From IMG/VR virus record IMGVR_UViG_3300036944_000051, positions 1 through 25,919 of that record: a stretch of DNA of 25,919 nucleotides; one strand, given 5' to 3'. The DNA comes from a virus. Shown piece after piece: positions 486 to 23,482 of this stretch (position 1 is its first letter; every line of letters starts with the position of its first letter). The position numbers and the translations under genes are program-made. The notes below the pieces were generated by a model. It did no database searches and was not told the DNA's origin. It saw only the letters and a program-made list of their open reading frames with translations.

Positions 486-1925
486 ATGGCAACGCAACGT
501 ATTGTTTTTGGTGAGTGGATGCCAGATCAGCCTGGCATTTCAGGCGCTTTGAGTGACGCAAAGAACTGTGTTTCTCAGGCTGTTGGGTATGGCCCATTTC
601 CTCAAGCCGCTACATTTTCTGAAGCTGCTTCTGAAAATCTGACAAGTTTGTTTGCTAGTAAACAGCCAGATGGCGTGACAAAGCTGTTCGCTGCTGGTCG
701 CACTAAGATTTATACAGTCTCTGGTGTTGGTGCATTAACTCAGGTAAACACTGGTTATTCAACGTCAGCAAATGAGCGTTTCCGCTTTACTCAGTTTGGT
801 GATGTTGTTATTGCAACCGACAATTCTTCAAAGTTGCAGTCTTGGACATTAGGCACTTCAACAACATTTGCTGACTTGGCTGCTTCTGCTCCAGTGGCTA
901 AATACATCACGGTTGTTCGTGATTTTGTTGTTGTTGCAAATACCTATGAAAGCTCAAAACAAGAGCAATATCGTGTTCGATGGTCTGGCATCAATGATGA
1001 GACTACTTGGACACCTTCTTCAACAAACCAAGCTGACTATCAAGACATTGCCGATGGCGGTCAAATCATGGGCATCCGTGGTGGTGAGTTTGGCTTGATC
1101 TTGCTAGAGCGCGGTATTCAGCGAATGTCCTACATTGGCTCTCCGTTGATTTTCCAGTTTGACAACATCAGCCGAAACAAGGGGTGCATGGTTTCAGGCT
1201 CGATTACTCAATATCAAGGCATTACCTTTTTCTTGAGTGACGATGGCTTTTATATGTGCGATGGGCAACAGATCATGCCTATTGGCTCTGAGAAGGTAGA
1301 TCGCTGGTTCTTGGATGACGTAAGCGAAAACGACTATGGCAGTATGTCTGCGGCTGTTGACCCTGTTCGCAAGTTGATTCTGTGGAACTACAAAAGTAAA
1401 GACGGCAGTCGTAAACTGTTGGCTTACAACTTCAATACAAAGAAGTGGACTTACACAGACGCTGGCACAGATTTCATCTCTGATGCTTCTAGCGCATCAT
1501 CTACCCTTGAAGAATTGGACAGTGTTAGTTCTTCAATTGACGCGCTTAATACGCCAATGGACTCAATCCTTTTTGCTGGCGGCAAGTATTTCTTAGGTGG
1601 AACTCTTGCCACTAAGGTAATGACATATACAGGATTGCCATTGTCTGCAAGGATTCAGACAGGTGACATTGAAGCTGGCGGTCAGTCTTTGGTTACTTTG
1701 GCTCGGCCTCAGATAGATCAAGGCTCTGCGACTGTTTCAGTTGCTTCGCGCAGACTTTTAAGTCAGGACATTACTTACAGCACAGCAGTTGCAGCAAGTG
1801 ACGATAACCGTGTGTCATTGCGTGGCTCAGGCAAATATCACCGTATTCAGGTAAACCCTACTGGTGACCGCTGGAAGTCAGCCGTTGCCGTTGATATTGA
1901 CCTTGTATCGCAAGGGGTTCGCTAA
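486..1925 (+). CDS. Virion tail/neck protein, P22 gp10-like beta-rich protein
   Basis: The 479-residue protein begins at ATG 486, directly after the TAA of the previous gene; an in-frame upstream ATG at 435 would add 17 residues lying inside that gene and is less likely. It is beta-rich, with motifs such as FGEWMPDQPG near the N-terminus, RDFVVVANTY, VRWSGINDETTW, and FFLSDDGFYMCDG in the middle, the latter typical of WD/propeller-like blades. This pattern matches proteins of podovirus-type genomes annotated as tail stabilisation (P22 gp10-like) or tail tubular protein B-like. These sit at the portal-tail junction. Assignment to the fold rests on motif feel and position before the ejection proteins, not on a search. 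Confidence 0.6.
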   Translation: MATQRIVFGEWMPDQPGISGALSDAKNCVSQAVGYGPFPQAATFSEAASENLTSLFASKQPDGVTKLFAAGRTKIYTVSGVGALTQVNTGYSTSANERFRFTQFGDVVIATDNSSKLQSWTLGTSTTFADLAASAPVAKYITVVRDFVVVANTYESSKQEQYRVRWSGINDETTWTPSSTNQADYQDIADGGQIMGIRGGEFGLILLERGIQRMSYIGSPLIFQFDNISRNKGCMVSGSITQYQGITFFLSDDGFYMCDGQQIMPIGSEKVDRWFLDDVSENDYGSMSAAVDPVRKLILWNYKSKDGSRKLLAYNFNTKKWTYTDAGTDFISDASSASSTLEELDSVSSSIDALNTPMDSILFAGGKYFLGGTLATKVMTYTGLPLSARIQTGDIEAGGQSLVTLARPQIDQGSATVSVASRRLLSQDITYSTAVAASDDNRVSLRGSGKYHRIQVNPTGDRWKSAVAVDIDLVSQGVR

Positions 1926-3164: not shown

Positions 3165-4382
3165 ATGGCACTTCTAGATTCTTTCTACGGCGAAACGCCT
3201 TCTTACCTTGGCGGTCTTCTTGGTGAAGATGAGCTGAAGCGCCTTCAAGGTCAAGCTCAAGGCCAATCAAATCTGAGCATGGCTACTGCTTTGCTTCAGG
3301 CTGGCGCTCCTAGTCGTACTCCTGGCGGTGGCGCTTTGGCTATTGCTCAAGGCTTGCAGGCTGGTCAACAAATGTATAAACAAGCGTTGAACCAAGGTCT
3401 GCAAGAGAAGATGGTTGGTATGCAAGTGCAAGAGCAGTTGCGTAAGCAGCAAGAGGCTCAAGCTGTTCGTCAGTTCTTGCCTCAACTTATCCAGCCTGGT
3501 GCTGTTGAACAAAACTGGTCTGGCTCTCCTGACCAGATTAGTCAGTATTTTCAAACGCCTGGGCAAGCTGTTATTCCAACACAGCAAGGCCCATCGACTA
3601 TTAACCGTGATGCTTTGCAACGCTTGGCTTTGGTTTCTCCTGAGACTTATGCCAAGTACAAACCAGAATACAAAGAAGTTAATGGTCAATTGGTGGAGAT
3701 TTCTCCATTGACAGGCGTTAGCACTGTGGCTGGAACAGCTAAAGAAGATTTGGCTGGCCCTGTAAAGCAGGCTATGCAAGTTCTTGGCATCATGAAGCCT
3801 TTTGCTCAAGTCACGCCACAAGAGCGCACAGCGATTGGTCAATATATTGATCGTCAAGAGGCCATGAAAACGCCAAAGGTAAATGTTGACCTAAAAGACC
3901 CGACAGCAGTAGCAACAGCGCAATCTAAAGTATTGTCTGATTACACAGGAGTTTTAACTAACGCAAAAGTTAGTGAGACTGCTGATCGTTACACGCAAGC
4001 TGTTAATGCGGTAAGGCTGGCATCGCAAGGTAACAAAGCAGCAGATGGCGCATTGATTTATGCCATTGGTAAAATTTATGACCCTTCAGGCGCTGTGCAA
4101 GAGGGTGATAAAGCTACCATTGTCGGCAATAGGTCTATTCCTGAATCTGTGCAGGGATTGGCTAAAAAAGCATTTACTGGTGAATCTCTTTTGCCAGCGG
4201 AACGTAAAAAACTGCTTGATATGGCTCAATCAATTGTTGAAGCAAAGTCTCGTAGCATTGACAGAATCCGTGAGCCGTATATTGATCTTTCTAAGAGTTT
4301 TGGCGGGTCTGGCAATTTGCTAAGAAACCCATTGGCTGAAGCAATTAAAGAGCGCGGCACACTTGATGACATTCTTAAATAA
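3165..4382 (+). CDS. Internal virion / ejection-type protein
   Basis: This 405-residue protein starts 11 bases after the previous gene. The N-terminus (MALLDSFYGETPSYLGGLLG) leads into a Gln/Ala/Leu-rich helical region (about 25-115) with SNLSMATALLQAGAPSRTPGG and predicted coiled coil, then a Pro/Gln linker, then a mixed C-terminal half with charged helices and repeated Ala/Lys/Asp motifs. There is no signal peptide and no classical catalytic motif. Similar proteins sit between tail-tube-like and fibre genes in many uncultured podovirus-like genomes, where they are taken to be minor virion or ejected proteins. Exact function is unknown. Confidence 0.5.
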   Translation: MALLDSFYGETPSYLGGLLGEDELKRLQGQAQGQSNLSMATALLQAGAPSRTPGGGALAIAQGLQAGQQMYKQALNQGLQEKMVGMQVQEQLRKQQEAQAVRQFLPQLIQPGAVEQNWSGSPDQISQYFQTPGQAVIPTQQGPSTINRDALQRLALVSPETYAKYKPEYKEVNGQLVEISPLTGVSTVAGTAKEDLAGPVKQAMQVLGIMKPFAQVTPQERTAIGQYIDRQEAMKTPKVNVDLKDPTAVATAQSKVLSDYTGVLTNAKVSETADRYTQAVNAVRLASQGNKAADGALIYAIGKIYDPSGAVQEGDKATIVGNRSIPESVQGLAKKAFTGESLLPAERKKLLDMAQSIVEAKSRSIDRIREPYIDLSKSFGGSGNLLRNPLAEAIKERGTLDDILK

Positions 4383-4391
4383 GGCGGATGT

Positions 4392-6389
4392 ATGAGCGCT
4401 GAAAGCGAAAAAATCCAAAAAGCTCTTGATTCTGGCTATTCGGTTAGCGAAATCCAATCGTGGTATCTAGGCAAGGGTTTGGAATTGCCTGCTGAGTTAC
4501 GCCAAAGCGCTGCTAAAGAAGCTGGTGCAAAAGCTCCGTTTGCTGTGAAAGCGGCAATGACTGCAATGCAAGGCCCAACATTCGGTTTTGCAGATGAGTT
4601 AATGGGCGGTGTAACTGCGCCATTTATTCAGATGCGCCAGCCTAATTTGCCATTGTCAAAGGCGTATGAAGTGGGCCGTGACGTTTATCGTGGTGGTGTT
4701 CAAAGTCTTAAAGAAGAATATCCAATTGGCTCTATGATTCCTGAGGTGGCTGGCGCTATGGCACTAGGTGGCCCTGTGCGTCAAATAATGCCTAATGTTG
4801 GCCCAATGACAAGTTCTGCTATTACTGGCGGAACGTATGGCGCAATCAGCGGTGCTGGCGGCGCTGAATCAATGGCACAAGTTCCACAAGAGGCTACAAC
4901 AGGCGGCATCATGAGTGCTGTGCTTGGCCCTGCTACACAAGTTGTTTCTAACGTGCTTGGCCCTGTTGCAAAAGTAGTTGGTGGTCGTGCTTCAAGCGTA
5001 TTGCCTCAAAAGGTTCAAGACTACATGGGTATGTCTTCTGCTGATTTGGCTCGCAGACGAGTTGCACAAGCAATGATGCGCGATGGCGCTACGCCAGAAC
5101 AAGTTGCGGCGCGAATGGGAAAACTTGGCGATGATGCTGTTATTGCTGAGGCCGCAGGAACTCAAACACGAGATTTGCTAGACACTATGGCAACTTTGCC
5201 AGGTCGCACCAAGAACTTTACAGAGCAGTTAATTCGCGAACGTCAAGCTGGTCGTGCGGGTCGATTGACAGATGCCGCAGGAAAACAACTATCGCCAGAT
5301 GGCGTTAGATTGGCTGACACTGTTGAAGACTTAATTAAAACTCGATCAACTCAAGCAACTCCGTTTTACGACAAGCTGCGCCCAATGGTGTTAGACGTTG
5401 ATGCTGACTTGGTAAGTATCTTACAAGCATCTGACAAACTAGGCGCTTTTAAAAACGCCAAGATGATTGCAACAGCAGAGCGCGTACCTTTCTCTCTTGA
5501 GTCTACAAAAGGCTTGGAAAAAGCTCCTTGGACTGATTTGGATATGGTCAAGCGTGGTCTTGATGATTTGAGTCAAAGCGCAAGGGCTGTTAATTCAAAA
5601 GGCGAATACACAGATTTTGGTCGCGCTGTTTTGAAGTTGAAAACAGACTTGGTAAACAAAGTTGATAATTTGACGATTGACGATGCTGGTAGTTCTATCT
5701 ACAAACAAGCTCGTGCTGCTTATGCTGGCCCAAGTTCAATGATTAACTCTGCTGAGATGGGTCGAACAATTCTTAGCAAAGATGCGTCTGTAATTAAAGA
5801 TTCTGTTAAAGACATGACTGAATCAGAATTCAAGGCTTTCCAAGTTGGTGCATTTGAAGCATTGCGTACAAAACTAGGTAAGCAATCTGGTCAGACTGAA
5901 ATCATGAAAATGTGGCGCGAGCCTGCTACTCAAGAAAAGTTAAAAGAGATTTTTCCAAACGAGCGTGCATACCGTGAATTTGCTACGACTGTGGCTGCTG
6001 AATCACGCAAGCAAGGCATTGAATCTGTTGGTCGTGGCTCTGCTACCGCAGGTCGTGAAGCTCGCATGGAAGACGTAGGAATTGAGACATTGAAGGACAT
6101 TGGCGCTATTGGCGCTGCTGCCAAGACAATGAATCTTGATTCTTTGATCGGAATGATTCAGACAGGAATGAGCAGAAGCGTGGTTCCTGAGCCTGTTCGC
6201 AATGAGATTGGAAACATCTTATTGAGTCGCGCACAGTCGCCTGAACAACTTAAAATGTTGAAAAATGTTATTTCCAAAATGGAAGAAGAACAGAAAAACA
6301 AATCGTTGCGTAGTGGATTGATCGGTGGAAATATCGGTGGCCAGTTTGCAGAGCCAGTAACACAAGGGCTACGCTCTTTGCTTGACTAA
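4392..6389 (+). CDS. Large internal virion / ejection-type protein
   Basis: At 665 residues this is the largest of the three ejection-type proteins. Residues 1-45 look like a small helical domain (KIQKALDSGYSVSEIQSWY). Residues 55-200 contain FGFADELMGG followed by Gly/Ala-rich hydrophobic helices that could insert in membranes (GSMIPEVAGAMALGG, GTYGAISGAGGAES). The remainder is a long charged helical body, with LRSLLD at the extreme C-terminus. This layout, soluble head, Gly-rich amphipathic region, long helical rod, fits proteins that form a trans-envelope conduit on infection. No lysozyme motif is visible. It is separated from its neighbours by 9 bases on each side, consistent with one late transcript. 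Confidence 0.55.
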   Translation: MSAESEKIQKALDSGYSVSEIQSWYLGKGLELPAELRQSAAKEAGAKAPFAVKAAMTAMQGPTFGFADELMGGVTAPFIQMRQPNLPLSKAYEVGRDVYRGGVQSLKEEYPIGSMIPEVAGAMALGGPVRQIMPNVGPMTSSAITGGTYGAISGAGGAESMAQVPQEATTGGIMSAVLGPATQVVSNVLGPVAKVVGGRASSVLPQKVQDYMGMSSADLARRRVAQAMMRDGATPEQVAARMGKLGDDAVIAEAAGTQTRDLLDTMATLPGRTKNFTEQLIRERQAGRAGRLTDAAGKQLSPDGVRLADTVEDLIKTRSTQATPFYDKLRPMVLDVDADLVSILQASDKLGAFKNAKMIATAERVPFSLESTKGLEKAPWTDLDMVKRGLDDLSQSARAVNSKGEYTDFGRAVLKLKTDLVNKVDNLTIDDAGSSIYKQARAAYAGPSSMINSAEMGRTILSKDASVIKDSVKDMTESEFKAFQVGAFEALRTKLGKQSGQTEIMKMWREPATQEKLKEIFPNERAYREFATTVAAESRKQGIESVGRGSATAGREARMEDVGIETLKDIGAIGAAAKTMNLDSLIGMIQTGMSRSVVPEPVRNEIGNILLSRAQSPEQLKMLKNVISKMEEEQKNKSLRSGLIGGNIGGQFAEPVTQGLRSLLD

Positions 6390-6398
6390 AGGAAAATC

Positions 6399-7109
6399 AT
6401 GCCAAAAACCAAAATCAGCGAGTACAGCAGTACCGCTAACTCCAACACAGACGTAGCCTCAATCAACATTGATGAAGGTTGCGCTCCTAGCGGTATCAAC
6501 AACGCTATTCGTGCCATTATGGGTCACTTGAAGGACTTTCAAGCTGGCTTGTCTGGTGACTCATTGCCGATTGCTTCAGGCGGTACAGGCTCAACTACTG
6601 CAAGCGCGGCGCGTACTGCTTTGGGGCTTGTAATTGGAACTGACGTTCAAGCCTACGATGCAGACCTTACAACGCTAGGCGCTGGCGGTTCTTCTGCTCG
6701 CTCATTCCTTGGTTTGGTAATTGGAACTGATGTTCAGGCATATGACGCAGACACAGCCAAGACTGACGTTGTTCAATCTTTCTCTGTTGCTCAACGTGGC
6801 ACAGTAAGCGCATTGACAGACGGCTCAACAATCACACCTGATTTTGCTGCTGCAAACAACTTTAGCGTGACTTTGGGCGGTAACCGTACATTGGCTAACC
6901 CTACGAACTTGGTTGCAGGTCAATCAGGTGTAATTGTGATTACCCAAGACGGTACAGGCTCGCGTACACTAGCCTACGGAAGCTACTTCAAGTTTGCTAA
7001 CGGAACTGCTCCATCATTGACAACAACCGCATCGGCTGTCGATGTGCTGGCATACTATTGCGAAAGCTCAACAAGAATTACTGCACGACTTATCTCTGAT
7101 GTCAAATGA
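6399..7109 (+). CDS. Short tail fibre protein
   Basis: The 236-residue protein opens with MPKTKISEYS, followed by GINNAIRAIMGHLKDFQ, which is typical of the N-terminal attachment part of phage tail fibres. Next comes the hinge-like LPIASGGTGSTTASAARTAL and two copies of LGLVIGTDVQAYDAD (about residues 75-89 and 104-118), encoded with many synonymous differences. The C-terminal half is a beta-rich tip containing TLGGNRTLANPTNL and GVIVITQDGTGSRTL, a pattern seen in many receptor-binding fibres. It likely trimerises and contacts the host surface or carries the longer fibre encoded downstream. Its TGA overlaps the ATG of the HNH gene. Confidence 0.8.
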   Translation: MPKTKISEYSSTANSNTDVASINIDEGCAPSGINNAIRAIMGHLKDFQAGLSGDSLPIASGGTGSTTASAARTALGLVIGTDVQAYDADLTTLGAGGSSARSFLGLVIGTDVQAYDADTAKTDVVQSFSVAQRGTVSALTDGSTITPDFAAANNFSVTLGGNRTLANPTNLVAGQSGVIVITQDGTGSRTLAYGSYFKFANGTAPSLTTTASAVDVLAYYCESSTRITARLISDVK

Positions 7110-7609
7110 AACCAGTTTCTTTACCAAGCATTGATCGAATCAATCAACTTGTTGAATACAACAAGGATGATGGTTTGTTCATGTGGAAGATATATCGTGG
7201 CGGAAAAGCAAAAGCTGGAACTCCAGCAGGTTCTTTTCGTGCAGATGGGTATCATGCGATTTGTATAGATTATCATTCTTACAAATCAAGCAGATTGGCT
7301 TGGTTCATTGTTAGTGGTGAAGACCCAAAAGAATTTGACATTGACCACATAAATGGTGATGTTGCAGACAACAGATTTTGCAATTTGCGTATTGCAACAG
7401 AATCTCAGAACTGTTCCAACAGAAAAAAACGCTCAGATAATAAATCTGGCTTTAAAGGAGTTCATGCAATGGGTAAGAAATGGGCTGCACAAGTATGTGC
7501 AAACAAACAAAGAAAATATCTTGGTGTTTTTGATACTCCAGAGTTGGCTTATGCTGCATATATAAATCACGCCAATGTGATGCAAGGTGAATTTGCGAGG
7601 GCAGCATGA
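7106..7609 (+). CDS. HNH-AP2 homing endonuclease 1
   Basis: The 167-residue product has an N-terminal HNH_3-type ββα-metal module and a C-terminal AP2-like DNA-binding domain. The nuclease core is DIDHINGD (Asp80-His81), followed by DNR (Asn89) and NLR (Asn93). The AP2-type part is SGFKGVHAMGKKWAAQV then KYLGVFDTPELAYAAY. The His that precedes RL in the other two copies is Ser62 here (SSRLAWF). The gene joins both neighbours by ATGA overlaps and sits between two tail fibre genes, as expected for a free-standing mobile endonuclease that entered without breaking the operon. Two paralogues occur at 17354 and 23042. It probably nicks DNA near its insertion site to promote its own spread. Confidence 0.9.
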   Translation: MKPVSLPSIDRINQLVEYNKDDGLFMWKIYRGGKAKAGTPAGSFRADGYHAICIDYHSYKSSRLAWFIVSGEDPKEFDIDHINGDVADNRFCNLRIATESQNCSNRKKRSDNKSGFKGVHAMGKKWAAQVCANKQRKYLGVFDTPELAYAAYINHANVMQGEFARAA

Positions 7610-16916: not shown

Positions 16917-17224
16917 TGAGTTACGCAGACCTAGAAATGAAGGTTGTGCAGTGGGGGGAGAAGCGCGGCATTGTGCAGAACTCCAACCCACTTGCTCAGG
17001 CTATCAAGACCCAAGAAGAACTAGACGAACTAGTTGATGCGTTGCGTAATGACGACAAGGCGGCTATTGCAGACGCTTATGGCGACATTCTGGTGACTCT
17101 CATCATGGGTTGTGCCATTGCTGACCTTGACCTTGTGTCGTGCTTGGAAGGCGCTTACAACGAAATCAAAGACCGCAAGGGTTATCTGAACGCTGATGGC
17201 TTGTTCATTAAAGAAGTGTGTTAA
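16916..17224 (+). CDS. MazG-like nucleotide pyrophosphohydrolase
   Basis: Start is ATG 16916, overlapping the TAA of the peptide gene; the longer frame from 16844 runs through that gene and is rejected. The 102-residue protein is all-alpha with the metal-binding pattern QEELDELVDAL (Glu35, Glu38) and DAYGDILVTL (Asp53, Asp57), characteristic of MazG/all-alpha NTP pyrophosphatases. The C-terminal AYNEIKDRKGYLNADGLFIK is also typical of phage MazG. The enzyme hydrolyses (d)NTPs to monophosphates and may alter nucleotide pools or host alarmone levels during infection. Confidence 0.88.
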   Translation: MSYADLEMKVVQWGEKRGIVQNSNPLAQAIKTQEELDELVDALRNDDKAAIADAYGDILVTLIMGCAIADLDLVSCLEGAYNEIKDRKGYLNADGLFIKEVC

Positions 17225-17240
17225 ACTAAATTTTTAAATC

Positions 17241-17350
17241 GCTGGGGAGCGATAATCTAGTAAGCCCACAAGGGCAGTCTGCATCGTACTAGCGGTGTCT
17301 CCCCACGGCGCAAGCCGAGACTGTCCCTGTGGGCTTTTTTGCTGGGGAGC
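17241..17350 (+). ncRNA. Unclassified structured RNA / attenuator-like element
   Basis: This segment between mazG and the second HNH gene has several helices: TGGGGAG (17243-17249) with CTCCCCA (17299-17305); CTAGTA (17257-17262) with TACTAG (17287-17292); CGGC-GCAA-GCCG (17306-17317), a GNRA-capped hairpin; and the terminator stem at 17262-17336. The first two helices cross the terminator stem, so they form either a pseudoknot or an alternative antiterminating fold. It is bounded by direct repeats GCTGGGGAGC at 17241-17250 and 17341-17350, exactly 100 bases apart; the second copy provides the SD of the HNH gene. I could not match it to a known riboswitch or ribozyme. Confidence 0.5.
17262..17340 (+). 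terminator. Rho-independent terminator with long stem
   Basis: AAGCCCACA (17262-17270) pairs perfectly with TGTGGGCTT (17328-17336) and the stem continues for nine more pairs to 17280/17318 with one A-C mismatch and one G-U, giving 19 positions. Six T residues (17335-17340) follow at the 3' side. The 37-base loop itself holds a GCAA tetraloop hairpin. It would end transcripts from the rightward early promoter after mazG unless antitermination occurs. Confidence 0.8.
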
Positions 17351-17353
17351 AAA

Positions 17354-17845
17354 ATGAAGTACAGACGAGAATTACCTACTCAAGACAGGTTGAAACAACT
17401 CTTTGATTACAAAGATGGATTTTTGTTGAACAAAAAACAACGTGGCAAATCTAAAAAAGGCGAGCCAATTGGATTTGTTAACTTTTACGGATACAGGGTA
17501 TCAAGAGTGGACATGGAAAAATTTTATGTTCATAGATTGATATGGGTATTTCATAACGGTTCATTGAATGACCTTGATGTTGACCACATTGATGGGAATC
17601 GTGATAACAACAAGATTCAAAATTTGAGACTTGTAAATAGTCAAAAAAACAATCAAAACATTAGGCAAGCTAGAAAAACAAATGCTCTTGGAGTTCTTGG
17701 CGTAAGCATGAAATTTGGAAAATTTTGCGCTCAGATTTCGTTTAACAGAAAAGTAAAACATCTTGGATTGTTTAATACTGTAGAAGAAGCACATCAAGCC
17801 TACCTTGAAGCAAAAAGAAAAATTCACGAAGGATGCTTGATATGA
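17354..17845 (+). CDS. HNH-AP2 homing endonuclease 2
   Basis: Start is ATG 17354 with GGGGAG as SD; the 163-residue product has the HNH_3 core YVHRLIWVF (His60), DVDHIDGNRDNN (Asp77-His78), NLRLVNSQKNN (Asn90) and an AP2-like C-terminal half (LGVLGVSMKFGKFCAQI, KHLGLFNTVEEAHQAY). All expected HNH positions are present, so it looks active. It lies downstream of the structured terminator and is joined to the replication gene by ATGA. It is AT-richer in look than its neighbours, compatible with recent arrival. Paralogues are at 7106 and 23042. Confidence 0.9.
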   Translation: MKYRRELPTQDRLKQLFDYKDGFLLNKKQRGKSKKGEPIGFVNFYGYRVSRVDMEKFYVHRLIWVFHNGSLNDLDVDHIDGNRDNNKIQNLRLVNSQKNNQNIRQARKTNALGVLGVSMKFGKFCAQISFNRKVKHLGLFNTVEEAHQAYLEAKRKIHEGCLI

Positions 17846-18666
17846 AACGCCCATCATTTCAGTTTTACCCAAGCGATTGGTTGCGTGACACTGCTTTGCG
17901 CTCTTGTTCAACAGGTGCGCGTGGTTTGTGGATGGACATGATTTGCTTTATGCACGAAGGTTCACCTTACGGACACTTAAAGGTTGGCGATAAGGTTATC
18001 CTTCCTTCAAACCTTGCCCGTATGGTTGGGGATAGTGCAGACGTTGTTGCTGATTGGCTTTTGGAACTTTCACAGGCTGGTGTGTATGAAACAACTGACG
18101 AAGGTGTGATTTACTCAAAACGCATGATTCGTGATGAAAACCTACGCCAGATAAGGGCTGCGGGCGGTTCTAAGGGTGGAAACCCTGCTTTGATGGATAA
18201 GGTTAAGGTTAACCTTGAGGATAAGCAAAAACCAACCCCTTCATCTACATCTTCTTCTTCATCTCCATCTAAAAAAGAAAAGGTCGCTGACGCTCTTGTT
18301 TTGCCAGATTGGATGCCATTGGAAACTTGGGAAGCGTTTTTGGCTATGCGTAAGCGAATCAAGAAGCCACCTACTGATTACGCAATGAAGTTGCTTGTTG
18401 ATAAATTGGCAAGATTTAAGGCGAATGGGCAAAACATTCAGGCTGTCCTTGAGAAATCAATTACAAGTAGCTGGCAAGATGTTTTTGAGATTCACGAAAA
18501 ACAACAGTTTGCCAACAAATACGATGTGGCTCACGTTACAACGCCACCACCGCCAAACCAAGACGCTGCGTTGCGAAAGATTGAGGAAGACCGAAAGAAG
18601 GCTGTGCCACCATCTTTGGAGACATTGGCTAAATTGGCAGAGTTGCGTAAAGGTGTGCAAGCATGA
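17842..18666 (+). CDS. Replisome-organiser-like replication protein
   Basis: Start is ATG 17842 (ATGA with the HNH stop); an in-frame ATG at 17833 is also possible. The 274-residue product opens MKRPSFQFYPSDWLRDTAL, with residues 1-110 forming a DUF1376-like winged domain seen in phage replication initiators. Residues 131-145 are a Ser/Pro linker (CT-rich tract in DNA). The C-terminal domain (about 155-217) contains PDWMPLETWEAFLAMRKRI, KLLVDKLARFKANGQNIQ and SWQDVFEI, the usual C-terminal module of phage O-like/replisome organiser proteins that recruit the host helicase. It probably binds the phage origin. No origin repeats were found within it. Confidence 0.8.
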   Translation: MKRPSFQFYPSDWLRDTALRSCSTGARGLWMDMICFMHEGSPYGHLKVGDKVILPSNLARMVGDSADVVADWLLELSQAGVYETTDEGVIYSKRMIRDENLRQIRAAGGSKGGNPALMDKVKVNLEDKQKPTPSSTSSSSSPSKKEKVADALVLPDWMPLETWEAFLAMRKRIKKPPTDYAMKLLVDKLARFKANGQNIQAVLEKSITSSWQDVFEIHEKQQFANKYDVAHVTTPPPPNQDAALRKIEEDRKKAVPPSLETLAKLAELRKGVQA

Positions 18667-22951: not shown

Positions 22952-22989
22952 TATGATTAGGCGTGGCTACCTTTAGCGGGGGAAAAGCA

Positions 22990-23029
22990 GATTGAATCAC
23001 TGCCTGCCACAGCTTTTAATGATTCAATC
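22990..23029 (+). promoter_or_regulatory. Perfect 10-bp inverted repeat before third HNH gene
   Basis: GATTGAATCA (22990-22999) and TGATTCAATC (23020-23029) form a perfect ten-base stem with a 20-base loop, ending just ahead of the HNH SD (GGAG). Alternative pairings exist in the same leader: GTGGC 22963-22967 with GCCAC 23006-23010, and AAAAGC 22983-22988 with GCTTTT 23012-23017. No T tract follows the stem, so a regulator site or translational control structure fits better than a terminator. Confidence 0.5.
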
Positions 23030-23041
23030 ATGGAGATTCAC

Positions 23042-23482
23042 ATGAATTGGAATGACATTTTCTATTATGACAATGGACAACTTTGGTGGAAAAATTCTAA
23101 AGGCGGTCGCGTAATGTCAAAGCCTTCTGGACACAAAAGACCAGATGGTTATATTGGTATTTGCATTGATTACAAGGGTTATTTAGCACATAGACTAATC
23201 TATGAAATGCACTTTGGGAAGATACCTGTTTCCAATTTCATTGACCACATTGACAGAGACAAAACAAATAACAGGATTGAAAATCTGCGATTGGCTACAA
23301 AGCAAGAAAATGGCAGAAACAACTCGGCAAATGGATTTTGTTGGATTAAGCGTGAGGATTCTTTTACGTCATATATAACTGTTGACGGAAAGAAAAAACA
23401 TCTTGGCTACTATGACAACGCATTAGACGCTCGTGCAGCATATTTACGCCATCGCCGTAAGCACTTTGGCGAATTTGCTTGA
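23042..23482 (+). CDS. HNH-AP2 homing endonuclease 3
   Basis: ATG 23042 has GGAG eight bases upstream and is preferred to ATG 23030. The 146-residue product contains AHRLIYEMHFG (His50), FIDHIDRDKTNNRIENLRL (Asp68-His69, Asn77, Asn81) and a short AP2-like end (FTSYITVDGKKKHLGYYD). The complete HNH_3 pattern suggests an active nickase. It is the shortest of the three copies and the only one with free leader DNA on its 5' side, including a perfect hairpin. It is inserted between the conserved hypothetical gene and the YbcO-type gene. Confidence 0.9.
   Translation: MNWNDIFYYDNGQLWWKNSKGGRVMSKPSGHKRPDGYIGICIDYKGYLAHRLIYEMHFGKIPVSNFIDHIDRDKTNNRIENLRLATKQENGRNNSANGFCWIKREDSFTSYITVDGKKKHLGYYDNALDARAAYLRHRRKHFGEFA

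Follow-up and report, generated by a model that had tools for sequence, protein, structure and literature searches.

A terminator-closed double-pseudoknot RNA between the mazG-like and replication genes of uncultured phages, and its probable control of the genes behind it

The DNA analysed here, referred to as the window, is a phage fragment of 25.9 kb (25,919 nucleotides) from IMG/VR in which a non-coding stretch stands between a MazG-like pyrophosphatase gene and the genes for a homing-type endonuclease and a replication initiation protein. A first-pass annotation had proposed an unclassified structured RNA at 17241-17350. What is this element, and does it govern the expression of the genes behind it? 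The proposed helices are present in the sequence and have no Rfam match, and the locus is organized as follows, with positions given along the window.

16603 onwards, + strand: cro/YdaS-like gene, followed by a small ORF and then the mazG-like gene
16919-17224, + strand: MazG-like pyrophosphatase gene (Pfam and PHROG matches), upstream of the RNA slot
17219-17227, + strand: TGtTAAACT, a probable promoter of the extended -10 type that overlaps the stop codon of the mazG-like gene
17238-17340, + strand: structured RNA element, between the mazG-like and HNH_3 genes
17238-17253, + strand: hairpin I, stem ATCGC/GCGAT, loop TGGGGA (17243-17248); compensatory change in 3 of 4 modelled stem pairs
17243-17305 (span), + strand: PK1, TGGGGA 17243-17248 with TCCCCA 17300-17305; 100% paired in 95 sequences
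17257-17292 (span), + strand: PK2, CTAGTA 17257-17262 with TACTAG 17287-17292; 98.9% paired
17262-17280 with 17318-17336, + strand: P1, the closing helix and intrinsic terminator stem; double changes in 13 of 16 modelled pairs
17281-17286 with 17293-17298, + strand: P2 hairpin, whose loop forms PK2; double change in 4 of 5 modelled pairs
17306-17317, + strand: P3 hairpin (17306-17309 with 17314-17317), GCAA loop; loop variable among relatives
17336-17340, + strand: terminator U-tract, read in the sequence
17337-17354, + strand: hairpin II, stem TTTTGC/GCAAAA, loop TGGGGA; the loop holds the HNH Shine-Dalgarno and the 3' end lies at the ATG
17354-17845, + strand: HNH_3 homing-type endonuclease gene, 163 aa (PF13392, E 1e-14; phrog_99, HNH endonuclease)
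17842-18666, + strand: replication initiation O-like gene (phrog_678, E 9e-20), the usual downstream gene of the RNA family

Comparison of the aligned sequences shows a conserved fold in which a 5' hairpin precedes a three-way junction, two pseudoknots are formed, and the closing helix doubles as a terminator. PK1 joins the loop of the 5' hairpin to the strand between P2 and P3, and PK2 joins the strand 5' of P1 to the P2 loop. Both crossing helices, which had been suggested to form a pseudoknot or an antiterminating alternative, covary across 95 distinct relatives, so both are genuine pseudoknots. The longer of the two had been drawn with seven pairs (17243-17249 with 17299-17305); six of these hold, and the seventh, G17249-C17299, competes with the local 5' hairpin. 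The stem of that hairpin is paired in 100% of cells over the 95 sequences. P1 carries one A.C mismatch (17271/17327) and one G.U pair in the window, and with the T-tract behind it and the O-like gene downstream it bears out the proposal of a terminator ahead of a replication operon. The G.U pair at the base of P2 is invariant (95/95 sequences). Folding energies give z = -4.9 for 17241-17340 and -6.7 for 17250-17340, neither minimum being equalled by any of 200 shuffles. The GNRA hairpin, which had been singled out as a feature, does not survive the comparison: P3 loops read GCAA, GAAA, ATTA, TAAA or longer among relatives, so that the GNRA loop appears dispensable and a GNRA tetraloop acting as a tertiary contact is ruled out.

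How far does this RNA extend beyond the window? First relatives were collected through rep and mazG protein similarity, and further ones through IMG/VR pattern scans and a covariance model built without pseudoknots. Several phages related by rep/mazG carry the RNA, two of them (L036 and L038) in a divergent form in which both crossing helices are altered on both sides. The covariance search that the first-pass annotation had called for now confirms 95 distinct relatives with compensatory changes, and the family thus comprises at least 95 distinct sequences in uncultured water phages. Standard pairs occupy 99.4% of 3882 cells in these 95 sequences, compared with 35-46% when partners are slid by 1-3 columns; 28 of the 41 pairs change on both sides, with 857 double-change cells against 236 in shuffles. 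For the two crossing helices alone, 99.5% of cells are paired, and double-change cells number 172 where shuffles give 44.5. PK1 loops fall into the classes TGGGGA, TTGGCG, TTGGAG, TTGGCA, TTGGTG, TTGGTC and TTGGGG, each matched by the junction, and the outer pairs of PK2 are seen as CG, GC, UA and AU. The junction is nearly invariant among the 95 sequences, its 95/95 G.U pair included. Because the scan patterns preset some bases (TACT, CC.AC), invariance at these positions is partly a selection effect, which leaves the covariation unaffected. Members reached only via neighbouring proteins, not via the RNA pattern (L160, L175, L177, L182, L200, L025 and the second L067 copy), fit equally well, and with the PK1-blind model two of them show PK1 as TTGGTG with CACCAA (L025) and TTGGTC with GACCAA (the second L067 copy).

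G.U pairs occur at many positions on the sense strand (e.g., UG:31 and GU:35, besides one invariant GU), which argues for an RNA; an element acting as single-stranded DNA or from the opposite strand is disfavoured on the same grounds. Matches of the model on the antisense strand (15-26 bits) are due to the palindromic terminator and mark no second RNA. Nothing in Rfam 15, introns, ribozymes and omegaRNA included, reaches its gathering score in the window. The best sub-threshold match, to BcKCsr2, scores 16.2 bits against a cutoff of 40 and is absent at the loci of five other members, and a similarity to that RNA was rejected. A literature search of partial coverage found no published description of the motif; the family is apparently undescribed, and it lies outside Rfam 15.

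In 40 of 84 distinct upstreams a -10 hexamer begins precisely 12 nt ahead of the model start, against a background of 1.4/84 per position, and most of the remaining ones have it at a distance of 11-17 nt; -35 boxes are weak, matching on average 3.1 of 6 positions. The candidate in the window matches 4 of 6 positions plus the TG, was missed by the simple promoter scan, and places the predicted transcript start at about 17234-17236. These sequences make it probable that the RNA has its own promoter just upstream. Every distinct member ends in a T-tract with at least 5 and on average 7.1 T in 8 nt. In 136 of 138 members a start codon lies 9-19 nt past the RNA. Directly behind the RNA lies a rep-like gene (O-like, DUF1376 or HTH types) in at least 59 of the 138, and in others homing endonucleases (HNH_3, NUMOD4-HNH, GIY-YIG, T5orf172) or a few other genes. 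Between 17340 and 17842 the simple scan finds no promoter beyond chance, as anticipated: it gave two sites in the region covered, where 3.6 would be expected. That the element gates the whole early operon is a plausible hypothesis, with the amendments that the RNA seems to own a promoter and that the copies in L229 and L251 sit in other operons.

What, then, are the 10-bp direct repeats that bound the element? The repeat GCTGGGGAGC is indeed present at 17241 and 17341, and its reading as a mark of insertion fails. Each copy consists of the loop and loop-closing pairs of a hairpin, hairpin I and hairpin II, respectively; relatives keep the loop only, both stems change independently, and a target-site duplication was rejected. 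The loop of hairpin II copies that of hairpin I and could pair with 17300-17305. Among the HNH-linked members, 17 distinct ones have hairpin II; their stems vary (TTTTGC/GCAAAA, TATGGC/GCTATA, TTTGTT/AACAAA, TTGGC/GCCAA and others) while the loop is kept. Rep-type members are without it. Its loop tracks the junction, as TGGGGA with TCCCCA or as TTGGAG with CTCCAA (L294 and L323, where the junction changed too), and in L346 hairpin II (TTGGAG) fits the junction although hairpin I has drifted. Copies of a member's own loop occur downstream in 22 of 95 members against 8.2 in shuffles (maximum 18), and the link of hairpin II to the TGGGGA class is partly one of shared descent. The junction strand can thus bind hairpin I or hairpin II, which suggests masking of the ribosome-binding site (RBS) in the HNH-bearing branch.

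The RNA might be part of homing-endonuclease cassettes and nothing else, accompanying the endonuclease gene as an insulator of transcription and a lock on its RBS. Sequence identity climbs from about 0.5-0.7 to at least 0.9 at the RNA 5' end and remains high across the HNH gene, with differing flanks (window versus L012 and L067; L229 versus L182), and many endonuclease types stand behind the RNA, both as such a cassette would have it. Against it, the members that precede a replication gene (at least 59/138) do so without an intervening endonuclease, and what the window has in common with L045 is limited to the RNA and hairpin II, a different endonuclease standing behind; we regard this explanation as very unlikely. 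In our preferred reading, set out below, homing endonuclease genes would have either inserted repeatedly behind the leader or travelled with it. Elsewhere in the window, another HNH_3/AP2 gene (7106-7609) overlaps the end of the preceding gene, which leaves no space for a leader RNA.

Our preferred reading, to which we give even chances, makes the element a 5' leader that acts in cis on phage early (replication) operons, its double pseudoknot and the base of the terminator competing with each other. Transcription would start at hairpin I, PK1 and PK2 would lock the core together during RNA synthesis, and the last-made strand, 17318-17336, would have to zip up the terminator. Because PK2 ends at the P1 base without a linker, PK2 and the full stem could hardly coexist. 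An ideal A-form estimate, marginal before sterics, places the P1 base 51-53 Å from the junction, whereas at best 49 Å can be bridged; with the base at the limit of reach, PK2 formation would require that 3-7 terminator pairs be opened. RNA polymerase would stop or read through according to which wins, PK2 or the full terminator stem, and the winner would presumably be decided by some factor bound to the invariant core. Nearest-neighbour sums amount to about -9 for PK2, about -15 to -18 for lower P1 and about -12 to -14 kcal/mol for PK1. Lower P1 thus beats PK2 in energy, so that transcripts would terminate by default, short of something that stabilises PK1/PK2. From this geometry and these energies we infer attenuation by PK2 against the terminator. 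In the HNH branch, the junction strand (TCTCCCCA) of a read-through mRNA might also mask the RBS in the loop of hairpin II, and homing endonuclease genes behind the leader would use its promoter and control.

Two features of the leader model can be read otherwise: tight start-codon spacing could reflect compact phage genomes, and a promoter plus a terminator is also typical of a free-standing sRNA gene. In the latter case the terminated leader of about 105 nt would itself be the product, a trans-acting c4-like phage sRNA that would pair with Shine-Dalgarno regions of phage or host mRNAs through its junction strand (UCUCCCCA/CCUCCAA type) and its P2 loop, with hairpin I as an internal mimic occupying the junction before a target arrives. 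The element has its own -10 and its own terminator, its junction looks like an anti-Shine-Dalgarno for which hairpin II of the HNH mRNA would be a natural target, and the int-alpA RNA found in the same slot is filed by Rfam as an sRNA gene. However, the junction of the TTGGCG class, the largest, is CCGCCAAC, a poor anti-Shine-Dalgarno, no conserved target is seen except TTGG after the U-tract (70/95), and the RF01695 model has no match in the window at E <= 10. This reading is possible, if on the unlikely side.

Lambdoid phages keep early antitermination sites between cro-like and O-like genes, and the element lies in just this interval. It might accordingly be imagined as a put-like RNA of processive antitermination, which would modify RNA polymerase in cis so that it passes the element's own terminator and later ones of the early operon. 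One phage, G002 (L251), carries copies at 1501-1603 (-) and 4351-4453 (+) in two divergent early operons with different HNH genes, one copy per operon, an arrangement like that of putL and putR, which are found downstream of PL and PR (PMC9378689). However, a single strong copy is present in 14 of the 15 records searched, and the put RNA of HK022 is about 70 nt long with two stem-loops and no built-in terminator (PMC9378689). That architecture is not found here: the element is a three-way junction with two pseudoknots, and its closing helix is itself the terminator. We consider a put-like function improbable and retain the attenuator leader as the preferred reading.

Which hosts do these phages infect? 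One member, L229, is a Burkholderiales MAG, and the RNA was present in 2 of 399 sampled genomes of its order, which points weakly to Burkholderiales hosts. L229 is the sole genome-scan pattern match that the model confirmed; enterobacterial and other such matches, and those in L093 and L095, were due to chance. In the search aimed at cultured phages, the only records to carry the RNA were two of one uncultured Manatee Spring phage, and a plasmid search gave no match to it. In the GenBank phage record L214 (MW202462.1), an annotated opposite-strand hypothetical protein at 817-1059 covers the RNA and is probably a spurious ORF.

Does the mazG-rep slot always hold this RNA? Regular-expression searches of 145 fetched mazG or rep loci found the RNA described here in 14; 50 loci had an int-alpA-like RNA and 9 a kissing-loop RNA ('family C'), and no locus among the 145 contained two of the three. 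Rfam confirms int-alpA in L026, L028 and L044. Some phages carry int-alpA elsewhere in the genome, the window among them: an int-alpA-like RNA at 22952-23040 (RF02996 match 22960-23029) scores 33.7 bits, just under the cut-off of 35.8, has a TATGAT box and lies directly upstream of a third HNH gene (23030-23482), at whose start TGATTCAATC is perfectly complementary to its loop GATTGAATCA. At 17241-17340 the RF02996 model has no match at E <= 10, its sole match in the window being that at 22960-23029. In int-alpA-like RNAs (L003, L032, L044, L051, L058, L163 and others), a pyrimidine-rich loop covaries with a stretch near the downstream RBS (ACTCCC/GGGAGT, ACCTCC/GGAGGT, ACCCCTT/AAGGGG, TCATCAC/GTGATGA), which would form a long-range pseudoknot and suggests translational or attenuation control. 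The kissing-loop RNA, without significant Rfam match, occupies the same slot in L001 (3700-3815), L009, L021 (325-435) and L158; its hairpin loop GTACTAG kisses the terminator-hairpin loop CTAGTAC (GTACAAG/CTTGTAC in L021), and it has its own TATAAT and terminator.

Taken together, these comparisons add a well-supported family to the short list of structured RNAs known from the point where phages control replication, and the RNA probably controls the switching-on of the genes behind it. Three unrelated folds, the unexplained int-alpA among them, alternate in one genomic slot, which points to a shared control step in phage early transcription, and the arrangement hints at a way for homing endonuclease genes to settle in early operons and leave the host phage unharmed. 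A bolder reading takes the element as a new phage sensor or antitermination RNA class, whose double-pseudoknot core, with its invariant junction, reads a host or phage signal and times replication-initiator synthesis in a large group of freshwater phages, interchangeable with int-alpA and the kissing-loop RNA, endonuclease genes having copied the recognition hairpin onto their own RBS; we hold this to be unlikely.

Among known systems, the element works, as far as its sequence lets us say, like an attenuator leader with c4-like complementarities, and it belongs to none of the Rfam families tested. A terminator-type riboswitch or attenuator would have a conserved core whose folding competes with an intrinsic terminator; a conserved core and a terminator are present here, and their competition is predicted from geometry and energies. 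The int-alpA RNA (RF02996) resembles the element in its place in the mazG-rep slot, with a TATAAT-like box upstream and rep or HNH genes behind, and in the pairing of a loop with a stretch near the downstream RBS; it differs in sequence and fold. With the put RNA of HK022 it shares the character of a folded, promoter-proximal nascent RNA of phage early operons. In c4 leaders, internal strands are complementary to 5'-side segments and to the downstream RBS region. The C4 antisense RNA of P1/P7 (RF01695) is likewise a phage leader of this kind, and such complementarity is found here in PK1/PK2 and, in the HNH branch only, the hairpin II loop, a likeness of working and not of membership. The c4 RNAs of P1 and P7 are described as antisense RNAs (Citron and Schuster 1990, as cited in PMC2864571). 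The mazG-rep RNA differs from c4 as a double-pseudoknot three-way junction closed by its own terminator, with replication or homing genes behind it and not ant. Finally, T4-type homing endonuclease genes such as I-TevI, segB and mobE place RNA structure over their Shine-Dalgarno (PMC2988022), and the HNH genes here resemble them, with the Shine-Dalgarno in hairpin II, changing stems and a kept loop in the 17 distinct members, and masking predicted. Unlike the T4-type hairpins, theirs holds the Shine-Dalgarno in a loop that copies the loop of an upstream structured RNA, which could bind it.
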